From positions 124,001-188,000 of the forward strand of contig NZ_BEWN01000004.1 in NCBI RefSeq assembly GCF_002723955.1: 64,000 nucleotides of DNA, read 5' to 3'. Both the position numbers and the translations under genes were made by a program. This DNA is from Gluconobacter frateurii (GTDB lineage: Bacteria; Pseudomonadota; Alphaproteobacteria; Acetobacterales; Acetobacteraceae). The stretch's first letter is position 1. Each line of letters starts with the position of its first letter. Positions 5,325-11,181 of the stretch are shown piece by piece. The notes below the pieces were generated by a model. That model was not told the origin of the DNA, made no database searches, and saw only the letters and a list, made by a program, of their open reading frames with translations.

Positions 5325-6914
5325 TTAGTGCAGGTTATCAGTGCGGCGGATAAAGGCTGCCACATTATCGTGCAGTTGCTGAAGGGCTGTTGGATCTACG
5401 TAAACCATGTGCCCCGAAGAATACTGAGCGTACTCGATGTTCTTCTGAAGGCTCAGAGGCATCGGTAGGTGCTTCATCTCGTAAATGCCCTCATAATAAG
5501 GCGTTGCGAGATCGTAGTAGCCACCGTTCAGCATGACATGCAGATTGGGGTTCGTCTTGATAGCCATGGCGAGATCGCTCATGACATTTGGGACACCTTT
5601 CGGCTGGTAGCCATGACCTGGCTGAGTGTGCTTGTTGTCCCAGTGATCTTCAGGGTTGAACAGGCGATAGGTCTCGTCCGTGCCATACTTGAGTGTGTTA
5701 CGAACATAGTCATTGAAGACCGACACATAGGCAGAACTGATCGCACTGGACTGAGGGTCGTAATCCACTTCCTTGGACATTGGATCAAGCGTCGGACTGG
5801 AATAGCGCGTGTCGAGACGACCCGTCGCCATGCCTGTCTTCGCCTGAAGCTGCTGTTCGAACTGGCCGCCATTCACGCGAAGGTCTGACCGCAAAATGTA
5901 ATCAGTCGGCAGACCCGTGTAGTTATGGAGCTTTTCCGCAATAGCCTGACGCTCATTCTCAGGCAGGTCTGCTCCCTGACGCAGCGCTACAGTGTAGTCT
6001 GTGACGGCGAAATGCTCGACTTCCTTCAGGAAGGCCTTCAGATCAGCATGCTGCTGCGGCAGGCAGTGGTGATACCAGGCGGTGGCGGCATAAGTTGGAA
6101 GTGCCAGAACGTAAGGGTCGTCAACGCCCGGATTGAACTGCGGACCATCAGCGCTGTTGTCGTAGTTCAGGATCTGGGAAAGAAGAATGACACCGTTGAA
6201 GTCGATGTTTTCTTCCTGCTCAAGGTCATTGATGACGACTGCCGAGCGCATCGTGCCATAGCTTTCACCGAACAGGTATTTCGGTGAGTTATAACGGTGA
6301 TACTTCGCCAGAAATTTGGAAATGAAATGCGTGAAGGCTTCACCGTCGCCATCGACGCCCAGGAATTCCTTGGCAGCATCCTTGCCTGCGATACGGGAAA
6401 AGCCTGTTCCGGGTGCATCGACAAACACCACATCCGAGACATCAAGAAGGGACTGCGGATTGTTGATCAGAGCGTAAGGCGCGGCAGGAAGATGCTGGTC
6501 GCCTGGCGTATTCACACGGCGTGGCCCGAACGTGCCCATATGGACCCAGACAGACGCTGAGCCGGGGCCACCATTATAGAGGAAAGTAATCGGCCGTTTG
6601 GCGGAGGGTACCCCCTCCTTGAAATAGGCTGTGTAGAACATGGAAGCGACTGGAGGATTCTTATCCTCATCGTCTTTTCCAGTTTCAATCTTGAGCCCGC
6701 GCTTAGTCAGGATTTCATTCGAATCATTATAGCCTGCACCATGAACCAGAATGGTTCCGGCGACAGCCTGATAAGGGATGGTCATGCCATCAACGACAAC
6801 CGTAGCGCGCGTGACGCTATCAGCATTCGGGGCAGGTGTGTCCTTGGCCGTCTCGGCGGCAAAAGCGGGCGTTGCCATTATGGCAACGCCTAGAAGAAGA
6901 GCCTTGCGAAGCAT
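5325..6914 (-). CDS. Exported S10 family serine carboxypeptidase
   Basis: The 529-residue protein starts with a signal peptide (MLRKALLLGVAIMATPAFAA) and is therefore likely periplasmic or secreted. Peptidase S10 features are present in order: the oxyanion loop YNGGPGSASVW, nucleophile Ser in FGESYGT, Asp in YYDLATPY and His in YSSGHMVY. S10 enzymes remove C-terminal residues from peptides, usually at acidic pH, which would suit an acid-producing organism. It is convergent with the VOC gene and lies about 86 bases downstream of the PEPC-like gene on the same strand. Its natural substrate is unknown. Confidence 0.88.
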   Translation of the reverse strand: MLRKALLLGVAIMATPAFAAETAKDTPAPNADSVTRATVVVDGMTIPYQAVAGTILVHGAGYNDSNEILTKRGLKIETGKDDEDKNPPVASMFYTAYFKEGVPSAKRPITFLYNGGPGSASVWVHMGTFGPRRVNTPGDQHLPAAPYALINNPQSLLDVSDVVFVDAPGTGFSRIAGKDAAKEFLGVDGDGEAFTHFISKFLAKYHRYNSPKYLFGESYGTMRSAVVINDLEQEENIDFNGVILLSQILNYDNSADGPQFNPGVDDPYVLALPTYAATAWYHHCLPQQHADLKAFLKEVEHFAVTDYTVALRQGADLPENERQAIAEKLHNYTGLPTDYILRSDLRVNGGQFEQQLQAKTGMATGRLDTRYSSPTLDPMSKEVDYDPQSSAISSAYVSVFNDYVRNTLKYGTDETYRLFNPEDHWDNKHTQPGHGYQPKGVPNVMSDLAMAIKTNPNLHVMLNGGYYDLATPYYEGIYEMKHLPMPLSLQKNIEYAQYSSGHMVYVDPTALQQLHDNVAAFIRRTDNLH

Positions 6915-7000: not shown

Positions 7001-9823
7001 CTAGCCGAAGGCACGGTTGGCGTGCATGACGGCAATGCCAATTTCCCTTAGCAGATTGAAACAGCGTTCCAGCGGCTGGAAAATCTCGCGATGCTCGCGC
7101 GCAAAGCCACTTTCCTCACCAGCGCCGCCCGGTTCACCAAAATCAAGATTGGCGACGCTGAGGGCAGACACTGGAAACAGATCATCCAGAAGATCTAGCG
7201 ATCGCGGAATATCAAGGCACAGGATGAGGTTCGTGATGGAGTCTCGCGTCAGGTTGTTGCGTGGCCCGAAATACGGAATGCGCGTGGAAAGAATCCACAA
7301 CCGGTCAATCAGGGCAAAGCGGATAGCGTGCAGAAGCTTCTCGCGCGGTTCCATCTGTGGGGCTTCCGGCCAAGCTGCCCGCAAAGCGATGTGATCCGTC
7401 TGAATGCGGCGGAACATCGCTGGCGCGCTTGTCCAGAATTGCAGGACCTCAAGGCCATGGGAGATGGTCAGATAGTTCTGACGCTCTTCTTCGTCCTGCG
7501 CAGTTGAGGCACGGTCAAGCCATGTTCCCGGATCAAGTTGGCGCACGGTTGCGCGGAGAACTTCCAGATCCGAATGTGCGAGAGCCTGTCGCGCAAAATC
7601 CATGGCCTCGCGGAAACGGGACGAGCTATTCACGAAATGCTCGAAAGTTTCCGGATGACGTTGTGCTGCATTGCCCAGTCCGTGCAGGACATTCGCCCAC
7701 CAGCCAAGCTGCTGAAGAATAGCGTTATTTGGAATGGCGCGAAGCTGGCTTGGATGAGTGATCCGCGTCACGGTTGCGGCGTCAGACTGACGGGCTGAGG
7801 GACGCGAGCCTGTCTTGTCGATGAGGGACGGTCCGAAAGCGCTCAGAAGAGCCGCATAGCCTGGATCGTTGACGAGCGTGCCCATATCGAGCGCAATCGT
7901 GGAAAAGAAGTCGGCGGCAAAATCGGGGCGGTCATAGACCGGATCATTTACGCTGGCGGGAACATGAGCGACATGCTCAGCAAGCGTCGCAATGGTAGAG
8001 GACGCAATGCTGTTCGTACCGAAAAGCGTGTAACCGTCTCCGCCCTGAAAAGCCGTTTCTACGCGGCATCCCACGCCTGCATTGCGGAAAGCAATCCGTG
8101 TGCGGGCAGGCGAGAAGTAGTCGAGACGCTGACGCAGGCTGAACGGATGTGCGCCACGGCCAATGCTCTCCCCGTGCGTATCGAAAAGCGTGAGGGAAAC
8201 ATCTTCAAGGTCATGTTCCTTGAGAAGGTCCAGCGTGCGCATACGCAGGCGTTCGACAAGGTTGGTTGCCGCAAGCTGCCCGACATAACGACCGGAATCC
8301 GAATAGCCGAATTGCAAGGAAAGGCGACCGTTGGCGCGCAGATAGTTCCGCCAGTGCGGAGAGCGGAACGCCTCTTCAAGAATTGTCTCGCCGTTTTCCA
8401 GCGCACTTTCTGTCTCGAAAAGCGGAGAAATTTCGATCTGATGATCCTGAATCCCAAACAGGCGCGCGAGCCAAAGCGTCGCGAGAAGGGTGTAACCACT
8501 TTCCGTTTCGGCGATCAGGAAGCGGATTGGGGAGCCAGAATCAATATGCTTGAGGATCTGCGCCATCGTCATCATCAGACGGGCAGCAGAAGCGGGCTCC
8601 ACAAGGAGCGAACCGAAATCCACGTGACGTGGGGTCAGGTCATCGAGTGCATCATTGATACGCGACAGAAGCACGCGGCGTCGTGATGGGAGGGCCGGGT
8701 CATCCGTTAGGCCAAGACGCGTCCGGGCGACATTATAGATCTGTGCGGCGTTGAGACGTGTATGGATATGCGCAATGCCCAGCCCATGGCTTATGAAGCC
8801 TGCACGGATCGTGCGGAGCTTCAATGTTGCTGAAGCGTCGAGGTCGATGGCGGCATCCCGGAAAAGAGGCAGAAGCTCCTGTGCCTCGAGCAGCGCCTTC
8901 TCGCGATGTGCAATCAGGGTCTGGGCAAAATCACGGATAGCTTCAGGTGCGGCATTCTTCCCGGAAGGGCAGGCGGCATGCTGTGTTTTAACTGCCTCCA
9001 TGGCCCGACGAACGCGCATTGCAAGAGCCGAGTCCTGAAGGCTAAGACCAGCAAGACCTGCCTCAAGTCGTTCCAGTTGCGCGAGTTTGAGTTCCAGTCG
9101 GATGCGGATCGTGTCCCACCACCCGATATCGTTGCGCCCATCCGTGTCGAAGCCGACCCAGCTTGCCAGAATGACCGGAGCGGGGTCGACATGATCGGCT
9201 TCATTGGCCCATCGCGAGGTCATCTTTTCGATCAGCGAAGCACTGAGATCATCAAGCGCATCCCGGCCACGCAGGATCGCAGCCAATGCAAGAGACTGTT
9301 CGTGGGCCAGTGTGGGGGGGGCAGCGCGGCGGTGCGTTGTCAGGCAGGGTAGTGGAAGTTCCGGGTCCGAAGCCCGCTCTGCCAGAAGGGCATAAACGTG
9401 ATCGGCCAGAGCAAACGTGGGATGGGCAGTGAAAACAGCAGCGATCGCGGCTTTTGAAAGTTCTTCCGGGGATGCTGCCTGCTCTACAAGCCGGCTGGCA
9501 ACCTGTTGCAGACGGGTGGCCGGATCAGCGTCTCCAAGACCAACATACTGCCGCAGATGGGCGGCACGCTGGATGAAATGTTCATCTCGCAATGCCCGGA
9601 CCGTGTGTTCCAGCTCCTCGATTTTTTCGCCGTTGCCGACAGACAGATCCTCACCAATAGAGGCAATCAGATCACCCAGACCATTACGCTCTTTAATGAG
9701 GTGTGTGGTCAGGGTGTCGATGCGTGCGGAAAGGGATGTGTCGTGCCGGGAGGCGCAGTCAGACATCGGGAGCAGTCTCGCTTCTGCGGAAGGTAAATTG
9801 AAAACGGGCAAGTTATGTTCCAT
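7001..9823 (-). CDS. Divergent phosphoenolpyruvate carboxylase-like protein
   Basis: At 940 residues, the protein has the length and overall pattern of phosphoenolpyruvate carboxylase. Recognisable landmarks are FTAHPTF (131-137), SWVGFDTDGRNDI (221-233), FGYSDSGRYVG (505-515) and FDTHGESIGRGAHP (547-560). Each differs from the canonical motif at residues important in PEPC: TAHPTE ends in F, GYSDSAKD has lost K and D, and FHGRGGSVGRGGG has lost the catalytic HGRGG core. The C-terminus ends HANRAFG instead of the usual QNTG. The enzyme may be inactive, regulatory or altered in substrate. An automatic annotation would call it ppc; I would not assume anaplerotic CO2 fixation. Confidence 0.75.
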   Translation of the reverse strand: MEHNLPVFNLPSAEARLLPMSDCASRHDTSLSARIDTLTTHLIKERNGLGDLIASIGEDLSVGNGEKIEELEHTVRALRDEHFIQRAAHLRQYVGLGDADPATRLQQVASRLVEQAASPEELSKAAIAAVFTAHPTFALADHVYALLAERASDPELPLPCLTTHRRAAPPTLAHEQSLALAAILRGRDALDDLSASLIEKMTSRWANEADHVDPAPVILASWVGFDTDGRNDIGWWDTIRIRLELKLAQLERLEAGLAGLSLQDSALAMRVRRAMEAVKTQHAACPSGKNAAPEAIRDFAQTLIAHREKALLEAQELLPLFRDAAIDLDASATLKLRTIRAGFISHGLGIAHIHTRLNAAQIYNVARTRLGLTDDPALPSRRRVLLSRINDALDDLTPRHVDFGSLLVEPASAARLMMTMAQILKHIDSGSPIRFLIAETESGYTLLATLWLARLFGIQDHQIEISPLFETESALENGETILEEAFRSPHWRNYLRANGRLSLQFGYSDSGRYVGQLAATNLVERLRMRTLDLLKEHDLEDVSLTLFDTHGESIGRGAHPFSLRQRLDYFSPARTRIAFRNAGVGCRVETAFQGGDGYTLFGTNSIASSTIATLAEHVAHVPASVNDPVYDRPDFAADFFSTIALDMGTLVNDPGYAALLSAFGPSLIDKTGSRPSARQSDAATVTRITHPSQLRAIPNNAILQQLGWWANVLHGLGNAAQRHPETFEHFVNSSSRFREAMDFARQALAHSDLEVLRATVRQLDPGTWLDRASTAQDEEERQNYLTISHGLEVLQFWTSAPAMFRRIQTDHIALRAAWPEAPQMEPREKLLHAIRFALIDRLWILSTRIPYFGPRNNLTRDSITNLILCLDIPRSLDLLDDLFPVSALSVANLDFGEPGGAGEESGFAREHREIFQPLERCFNLLREIGIAVMHANRAFG

Positions 9824-9891: not shown

Positions 9892-11181
9892 ATGCATCCG
9901 GATATGAAGAAAGATGTCAGTCAGGCCAGTTCACAACGGGCCGCATCGCCCACGAAGCTCGCTGGCGCTCTGCTGATCGGCATGGGGGCTCTCGCAACAG
10001 GCACAACCTATCTCGCCGCGCATCATGTTCATGATGAGAGCTGGGTTCTCAATATTCTTCGGGCAGGCTCGAAAGCTGGCGTTGTCGGTGGACTGGCGGA
10101 CTGGTTTGCCGTCACGGCCCTTTTCCGGCATCCACTGGGTCTTCCCATTCCGCATACGGCCATTCTGCCGCGTCAGAAAGTTCGGCTGGGGCAGGCGCTC
10201 GGAAAATTTGTCTCCGGTCAGTTTTTCACCGAAGCCGACGTTCATCGTGCTCTTTCGAAAATTGATCTTCCAGGCCTTATCGCTGACGCTCTCAGCGAGT
10301 CTTCCACCCGCCTCACGCTGGTTGCTACTCTTCGAGCAAGTATTCCCAGTCTTTTCGATCGGCTTGAAGACGGCCGGGCAAGCTCTGCTTTATCTCGGGC
10401 GTTGCCTATTTTGCTGAATGGCGAGGAAATGGCCCCGCTGGTCTCACGGGCAATGCGAGCCATGGTGGACAGCGAAATGCACCAGGAGGTCCTGTCGTTC
10501 CTGCTGGCCAAGCTCAAGATGACGGTAGCGGCAAAAGAGGGGGACCTTCGGCAGTTTGTTGAAGAGCGCGTCCGGGAGCAGGGGGGGCGCTTCCTCGGAT
10601 GGGCCATTGGGGGATCTGTTTCCAATCGTGTGCTGACAGCCCTGCAGGCGGAAATCGAACGCATCGATCCTATGGATTCGGATATTCGGCACGGTTTTAC
10701 CGCATGGGTGCGGGCAGAAATTGACCGAATGGAAACTGATCCCGAGCGTCGACAGGATATGACGCAGGCTATCGGCTCAGTCCTGACCCATTCGAGTCTC
10801 AAGGCCTGGAGTGGGGAGCTCTGGGACCGGGTCCGTCGCATGGCGGAAGAGGACTGCGCAAAGGAAGATGGCTGGAGCGCATCGGTACTTGATACAGCCA
10901 TTCTGGGTCTGGCGAGTTCCATGCGGGAAAACGATGCGCTGCGAGAGCGCATCAATCAGGCCGTGGAGCGGATGGTGTCGAGGCTGCTTCCCGGCGTCCG
11001 GGACAAACTAGCCGGGTTCATAGCCAATGTTATGGCGGGTTGGGATGGTGACGACCTCGCACAGCGCTTGGAAGCGCGCGTGGGACGTGACCTTGCTTAT
11101 ATCCGAGTCAACGGAACGGTTGTTGGCTTTCTGGCGGGGGCTGGCCTTGATGTGATTTCCCGCCTGTTTTTCGGTGTCTGA
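9892..11181 (+). CDS. DUF445 family membrane protein (YjiN-like)
   Basis: This 429-residue protein has a hydrophobic N-terminal segment (about 25-45), the conserved stretch GSKAGVVGGLADWFAVTALFRHPLGLPIPHTAILP typical of DUF445, a long helical middle, and a C-terminal hydrophobic segment ending GAGLDVISRLFFGV. The topology suggests both ends are anchored in the inner membrane with a large helical domain between. The family function is not established. It is divergent from the PEPC-like gene, with only 68 bases between the two starts. Confidence 0.85.
   Translation: MHPDMKKDVSQASSQRAASPTKLAGALLIGMGALATGTTYLAAHHVHDESWVLNILRAGSKAGVVGGLADWFAVTALFRHPLGLPIPHTAILPRQKVRLGQALGKFVSGQFFTEADVHRALSKIDLPGLIADALSESSTRLTLVATLRASIPSLFDRLEDGRASSALSRALPILLNGEEMAPLVSRAMRAMVDSEMHQEVLSFLLAKLKMTVAAKEGDLRQFVEERVREQGGRFLGWAIGGSVSNRVLTALQAEIERIDPMDSDIRHGFTAWVRAEIDRMETDPERRQDMTQAIGSVLTHSSLKAWSGELWDRVRRMAEEDCAKEDGWSASVLDTAILGLASSMRENDALRERINQAVERMVSRLLPGVRDKLAGFIANVMAGWDGDDLAQRLEARVGRDLAYIRVNGTVVGFLAGAGLDVISRLFFGV

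Follow-up and report, generated by a model that had tools for sequence, protein, structure and literature searches.

A variant phosphoenolpyruvate carboxylase-fold protein of Gluconobacter and other Alphaproteobacteria is probably a working carboxylase with a remodelled active site

The window, a 64,000-nucleotide stretch of Gluconobacter frateurii DNA, contains a gene for a protein of phosphoenolpyruvate carboxylase (PEPC) length with altered motifs. Is the product a working PEPC, an enzyme for another substrate, or a protein retained for a noncatalytic role? The product, here called the variant, probably works as a metal-dependent PEP carboxylase; it would represent a distinct type, found in Alphaproteobacteria, whose active site has been remodelled. 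The features of the gene are listed in Table 1.

The first-pass annotation gave the reading frame and the motifs of the gene correctly. The open reading frame of 940 codons lies on the reverse strand, and the quoted motifs were exact (TAHPTF at residues 132 to 137, GYSDSGRY at 506 to 513, FDTHGESIGRGAH at 547 to 559, and the C-terminal HANRAFG). Met20 is a possible start. In one alignment, 15 of 17 database proteins begin in the Met20 column, where the alignment is loose, and residues 1 to 22 of the predicted model have pLDDT values below 50. Against this start, the closest protein, P0001 from G. cerinus (90% identity), is likewise 940 residues long.

Table 1. Features of the variant gene and its neighbors (window positions; residue counts from an alignment of 51 variant proteins, E. 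coli numbering for equivalents)
Feature	Position	Strand	Remarks
Variant PEPC-fold protein gene	7001..9823	(-)	940 aa as called; 921 aa if the start is Met20 (base 9766)
TAHPTF (residues 132-137)	9413..9430	(-)	His of H138 kept in 51/51; E141 site Phe in 51/51
HTRLN (354-358)	8750..8764	(-)	Arg of R396 kept in 51/51; D394 site His in 50/51
PLFET (467-471)	8411..8425	(-)	metal ligand E506 kept in 51/51
GYSDSGRY (506-513)	8285..8308	(-)	metal ligand D543 kept; A545G, K546R, D547Y
FDTHGESIGRGAHP (547-560)	8144..8185	(-)	loop Arg R587 and G582/G586/G588 kept; changes H579D, G580T, R581H, G583E, A590H
Glu589 at E. coli Lys620 position	8057..8059	(-)	Glu in 50/51
GSRPSARQ (672-679)	7787..7810	(-)	R699 and R703 kept, 51/51 each
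LRAIPNN (694-700)	7724..7744	(-)	R713 kept; W717/I718 changed to N/N
C-terminus HANRAFG	7004..7024	(-)	terminal Gly (G883) kept in 51/51; QNT lost
DUF445 gene	9892..11181	(+)	divergent from the variant
S10-type peptidase gene	5325..6914		downstream of the variant

The name "phosphoenolpyruvate carboxylase" or "ppc" is an automatic name from a weak match. It is weakly based because PF00311 covers residues 417 to 560 only (72.6 bits; cut-off, 22.4) and the PEPC equivalog NF000584 gives a score below its threshold (79 bits; cut-off, 815). Six other variant proteins score 55.8 to 73.2 bits with NF000584. E. coli Ppc scores 1224.9 bits. The canonical protein P0121 also falls below the cut-off, with 764.6 bits, and has 779.6 bits with PF00311. 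In protein profile scans (E 0.001), the window protein had no match to PF14010 or TIGR02751. Membership in the PEPC superfamily is indicated by the predicted model, which has the full-length PEPC fold. The model has pLDDT values below 50 at residues 552 to 555, 675 to 685, and 695 to 702, which are the catalytic loops, so active-site geometry was not taken from it.

The variant differs from known PEPCs. It shares 15% identity with E. coli Ppc (PF00311, NF000584; 1FIY/1JQN) in a structural alignment. It differs from the bacterial and plant enzymes by E141F, K546R, H579D, G580T, R581H, G583E, and K620E and forms a separate clade on a long, well-separated branch of 1.86 in the tree. It shares the fold family with the canonical PEPCs of Granulibacter and Methylobacterium (P0121 and P0138), which are 19 to 20% identical to the window protein. 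The archaeal-type PEPC (PF14010, 3ODM) is much shorter (target, 524 residues) and was beyond the reach of a sequence profile for residue comparison.

Residues were compared after aligning 51 variant proteins with 13 canonical ones. In E. coli PEPC we take H138 and R587 to be obligatory, E506 and D543 to bind the metal, R396, R581, and R713 to contact the phosphate, and K546 and H579 to lie on the bicarbonate side. The equivalents of H138, R396, E506, D543, R587, R699, R703, R713, and the terminal glycine G883 are kept in all 51 variants. E141F, A545G, K546R, G580T, R581H, and G583E are likewise present in all 51. The D394 site is His in 50 of 51 and the K620 site is Glu in 50 of 51. The H579 site is Asp in 38, Asn in 12, and Ser in 1. 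All 13 canonical rows keep E141, K546, H579, and R581, whereas the variant does not. The alignment is poor at the E. coli inhibitor sites K773, R832, and N881, and K773 and N881 also vary among the canonical rows.

The same pattern was found in a second set of 240 database proteins, made up of the 120 nearest to the window protein and the 120 nearest to a G185 protein that has Dongia proteins as its closest named relatives; at least 10 of these overlap with the 51. R396, E506, D543, and R587 are kept in 240/240, and K546R and G580T are present in 240/240. E141F is present in 237 (2 gaps) and R581H in 237 (0 gaps). The 120 best homologs contain FTAHPTF in 117 cases and FTAHPTC in 1; the pattern was unmatched in 2. 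The first-pass statement that nearly all catalytic motifs are lost was thus overstated, since the His of TAHPT, R587, E506/D543, R396, R713, and the terminal Gly are all retained. Judged from the aligned residues, the motifs are rebuilt rather than lost. The suggested loss of catalysis is unsupported, as the core catalytic residues are kept and the substitutions are fixed across the clade.

The gene is under purifying selection. Between named acetic-acid bacteria, dN/dS was 0.029 to 0.113 across 13 pairs. These values and the identical substitutions in the 240 proteins speak against family-wide decay of ppc.

The variant is the sole PEPC homolog in its own genome, so its description as a paralog of a canonical ppc did not hold. 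Profile searches of this genome (3.31 Mb, 99.97% complete) gave no second PF00311 match, no PF14010 match, and no pyruvate carboxylase over the cut-off. A scan of named genomes retrieved the variant from Komagataeibacter, Novacetimonas, Gluconacetobacter, Acetobacter, Commensalibacter, Rhodopila, Stella, and others, among the best 80 of at least 554 matches. Thirteen whole genomes drawn from these 80 were searched for PEPC homologs and pyruvate carboxylase: three K. xylinus, K. europaeus, N. hansenii, G. diazotrophicus, G. liquefaciens, A. tropicalis, A. pasteurianus, A. senegalensis, Commensalibacter intestini, Rhodopila globiformis, and Stella vacuolata. The variant was the only PF00311 match in 13 of 13, and pyruvate carboxylase over the cut-off was found in 0 of 13. 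PF14010 was matched in none of the 14 genomes searched (the window's own and the 13 named).

Variant proteins have the full-length PEPC fold and form a large, overlooked clade of their own in Alphaproteobacteria. Among 150 Acetobacteraceae genomes, 109 contained the variant, 3 contained canonical PEPC, and 6 contained pyruvate carboxylase (5 over the cut-off). The variant was missing from 41, and 37 lacked all three. Among 385 genomes of the class, 57 contained the variant, 37 canonical PEPC, and 59 pyruvate carboxylase; 237 contained none of the three. Two candidates were scored per genome at class level, so single misses are possible. The role in oxaloacetate supply is therefore not universal, given the 37 family and 237 class genomes without all three. 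The class count of the variant was reduced from 60 to 57 by dropping G347, G461, and G487, which are weak matches to canonical PEPC, and it includes G465, an odd long-branched row in the tree. G450, G310, G258, G159, G529, G194, G454, G292, and G318 had low PF00311 scores and were counted as neither form. In a sample of 349 genomes of the phylum, for which the share of genomes from outside the class is not given, 24 of 24 matches were within Alphaproteobacteria. A Burkholderia plasmid copy is a variant outside the class.

Very divergent PEPC-like proteins were also observed. G529 (locus L200, G529:C7:96500-104500) contains two adjacent open reading frames of 1109 and 1158 aa with TQHPTN, and related single frames are present at L201, L202, and L203. 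In an uncertain alignment, these four loci keep the equivalents of H138, R396, E506, D543, R587, and R713; the R581 position is Glu in L200 and L201 and His in L202 and L203.

The variant and the other carboxylases rarely occur together. Within the class, the variant was found with canonical PEPC or pyruvate carboxylase in 2 of 385 genomes (G429 and G403), against 13.8 expected (Fisher 8.6e-6, kinship ignored). When genomes were collapsed to 173 families, by highest family label as read, 8 co-occurrences were found against 9.2 expected, and the exclusion was gone. Seven families hold both PEPC forms, and in six of them no single genome has both. This either/or pattern within families is the pattern of one PEPC gene replacing the other. 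Exclusion as proof of function is weakened by the family-level control, and only the within-family pattern remains. Within Acetobacteraceae there is no exclusion: the variant is also present in 2 of 3 genomes with canonical PEPC and 3 of 6 with pyruvate carboxylase.

Both forms were found in one genome in G100 (Granulibacter-like), G049, and G429 (Methylobacterium-like). The canonical PEPC of G100 (L003) is 95% identical to P0121 of Granulibacter bethesdensis and about 59 to 62% identical to Methylobacterium proteins. In G429 (L216, L073), the canonical copy hardly differs from P0138 of Methylobacterium, and the variant shares 98.7% identity with that of Methylobacterium bullatum. The Methylobacterium serine-cycle PEPC was considered as a founding member of the variant clade and rejected. 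The Methylobacterium PEPCs listed came from a canonical query, P0138 is among the canonical rows, and both G429 and a Methylobacterium bullatum replicon carry the variant as a gene of its own. This rejection rests on Methylobacterium sequences other than that of M. extorquens itself.

No conserved operon partners were found across 41 loci, and chromosomal neighbors are shared only among close relatives. Genes that neighbor the variant in the window were found near it in few of the other 40 loci (DUF445 in 4, EF-G in 3, suf in 2, and the S10 peptidase in 0). The four DUF445 homologs (L107 to L110) are from the window's family and are 39 to 56% identical. Ten neighbors chosen from nine other loci have no relation to this metabolism.

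The surroundings of three copies on plasmids and of one in a chromosome (G185) are more informative. On a Sphingobium sp. TomTYG74 plasmid (L222, AP027342.1), the variant is annotated as "hypothetical protein" and is preceded by genes for a 2-hydroxyacid dehydrogenase, an APH-family kinase, an enolase (523.5 bits; equivalog cut-off, 300), and a FAH-family protein. On a Phyllobacterium zundukense plasmid (L221, NZ_CP104969.1), a SucC-SucD-type CoA-ligase pair is followed by the variant without a gap, near oxalate genes (formyl-CoA transferase and oxalate/formate antiporter). The ligase beta subunit is over the succinate model and below the malate-CoA ligase cut-off. The same type of pair is directly upstream of the chromosomal copy in G185; this copy shares 93% identity with a Dongia rigui protein. 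On a Burkholderia pyrrocinia plasmid (L220, NZ_CP150851.1), the variant lies between RraA-family and glyoxylate-reductase-like genes. Its host is a betaproteobacterium, and its closest relative among the aligned rows is alphaproteobacterial (64%). These four copies contain the variant residues at the checked sites, except for Gln instead of His at the D394 site in Sphingobium. The further plasmid-collection copy in Methylobacterium bullatum has no annotated neighbors. A PEP-forming enolase beside the variant and an adjoining malate- or succinate-using ligase are consistent with an enzyme that makes oxaloacetate from PEP. The cassette in Sphingobium could alternatively serve a substituted PEP.

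PEPC activity has been reported from acetic-acid bacteria. Crude extracts of G. xylinus CGMCC 2955 are reported to show it in an NADH-coupled kit (PMC4047042), and aspartate and malate are reported to inhibit a purified PEPC sold as an Acetobacter enzyme (PMC5259782, which cites Benziman 1969 for PEP carboxylation in Acetobacter xylinum). These activities, measured on an extract of a strain outside the genomes searched and on a commercial preparation, may belong to the variant gene. For G. oxydans 621H, GOX0102 is described as ppc and its expression as rather low (PMC6191907); it is presumably the ortholog of the window gene. Genome-scale models of Acetobacter assign EC 4.1.1.31, and the PEPC gene of A. 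pasteurianus 386B is reported to have been annotated as a frameshifted pseudogene (PMC6915089 and PMC9729256). In its section 9, a 2020 review names four PEPC types without the variant among them (PMC8100219). In the open-licence literature, we found no description of the variant subfamily and no assay of a sequence-verified member.

A working PEPC is favored because the predicted fold is full length, the core residues are kept, a second set of substitutions is fixed in the clade, and selection is purifying, and also because, of the anaplerotic carboxylases searched for, few others occur in the same genomes. PEP would be bound at the E506/D543 metal site and by R396 and R713. His550 (R581 position) and Arg512 (K546 position) may take on the third contact to the phosphate and the role on the bicarbonate side. 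The phosphate would be moved to bicarbonate, and the enolate would be carboxylated via His134 and Arg556. Weighing against this reading, R581H, H579D/N, K620E, and D394H alter charges near what we take to be the substrate site, and a frameshift and low expression have been reported. The 41 family genomes without the variant, the genomes with both PEPC forms, the missing exclusion within Acetobacteraceae and at family level, and the low pLDDT of the catalytic loops also count against it. It is possible, and we propose it tentatively, that the variant is a further PEPC class beyond the four reviewed types, with the third phosphate Arg replaced by His, the loop His by Asp or Asn, and the TAHPTE Glu by Phe. 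Such a class would carboxylate PEP with a rearranged bicarbonate/phosphate pocket, or another phosphoenol, and would replace canonical PEPC across much of Alphaproteobacteria.

The main alternative is a carboxylase of the same chemistry, or a C-C bond enzyme, acting on another phosphoenol or 2-oxo substrate, with R581H, H579D, G583E, and E141F as a specificity switch. It would account for altered positions that are fixed together, for the genomes with both PEPC forms, and for the Sphingobium cassette, whose enzymes could produce and consume a substituted PEP. We consider it unlikely, however, as two observations point to PEP itself: the genome-level exclusion with canonical PEPC and pyruvate carboxylase (gone at family level) and the PEPC activity reported from organisms whose relatives hold only the variant homolog. 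A pseudoenzyme retained for a scaffolding or regulatory role, which the first-pass annotation proposed, fits the three altered classic motifs, as well as the reported low expression in G. oxydans and the one A. pasteurianus strain with a reported frameshift. It is improbable given catalytic and metal residues that are invariant over a deep clade, and neither the window's own genome nor the 13 named genomes contain a canonical PEPC that it could regulate. A decaying ppc heading for loss could explain that reported frameshift and the 41 family genomes without the variant, but the low dN/dS, the shared substitutions, and the long, well-separated clade make it scarcely credible. We rank an active PEPC of a distinct type ahead of an enzyme for another substrate, and the latter ahead of a pseudoenzyme.

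In Gluconobacter, the enzyme may serve as a source of oxaloacetate for amino-acid synthesis. Studies of metabolism in Gluconobacter and Acetobacter attribute PEPC to a gene that, from the genome searches, is presumably the variant. If the variant uses another substrate, oxaloacetate supply would be open in many acetic-acid bacteria, and annotations and flux models would need correcting. If it is active as a PEPC, the PEPC-characteristic K546, H579, and R581 would be replaceable as a set, which would offer a naturally occurring test of how this enzyme, central to CO2 fixation, works and is regulated.
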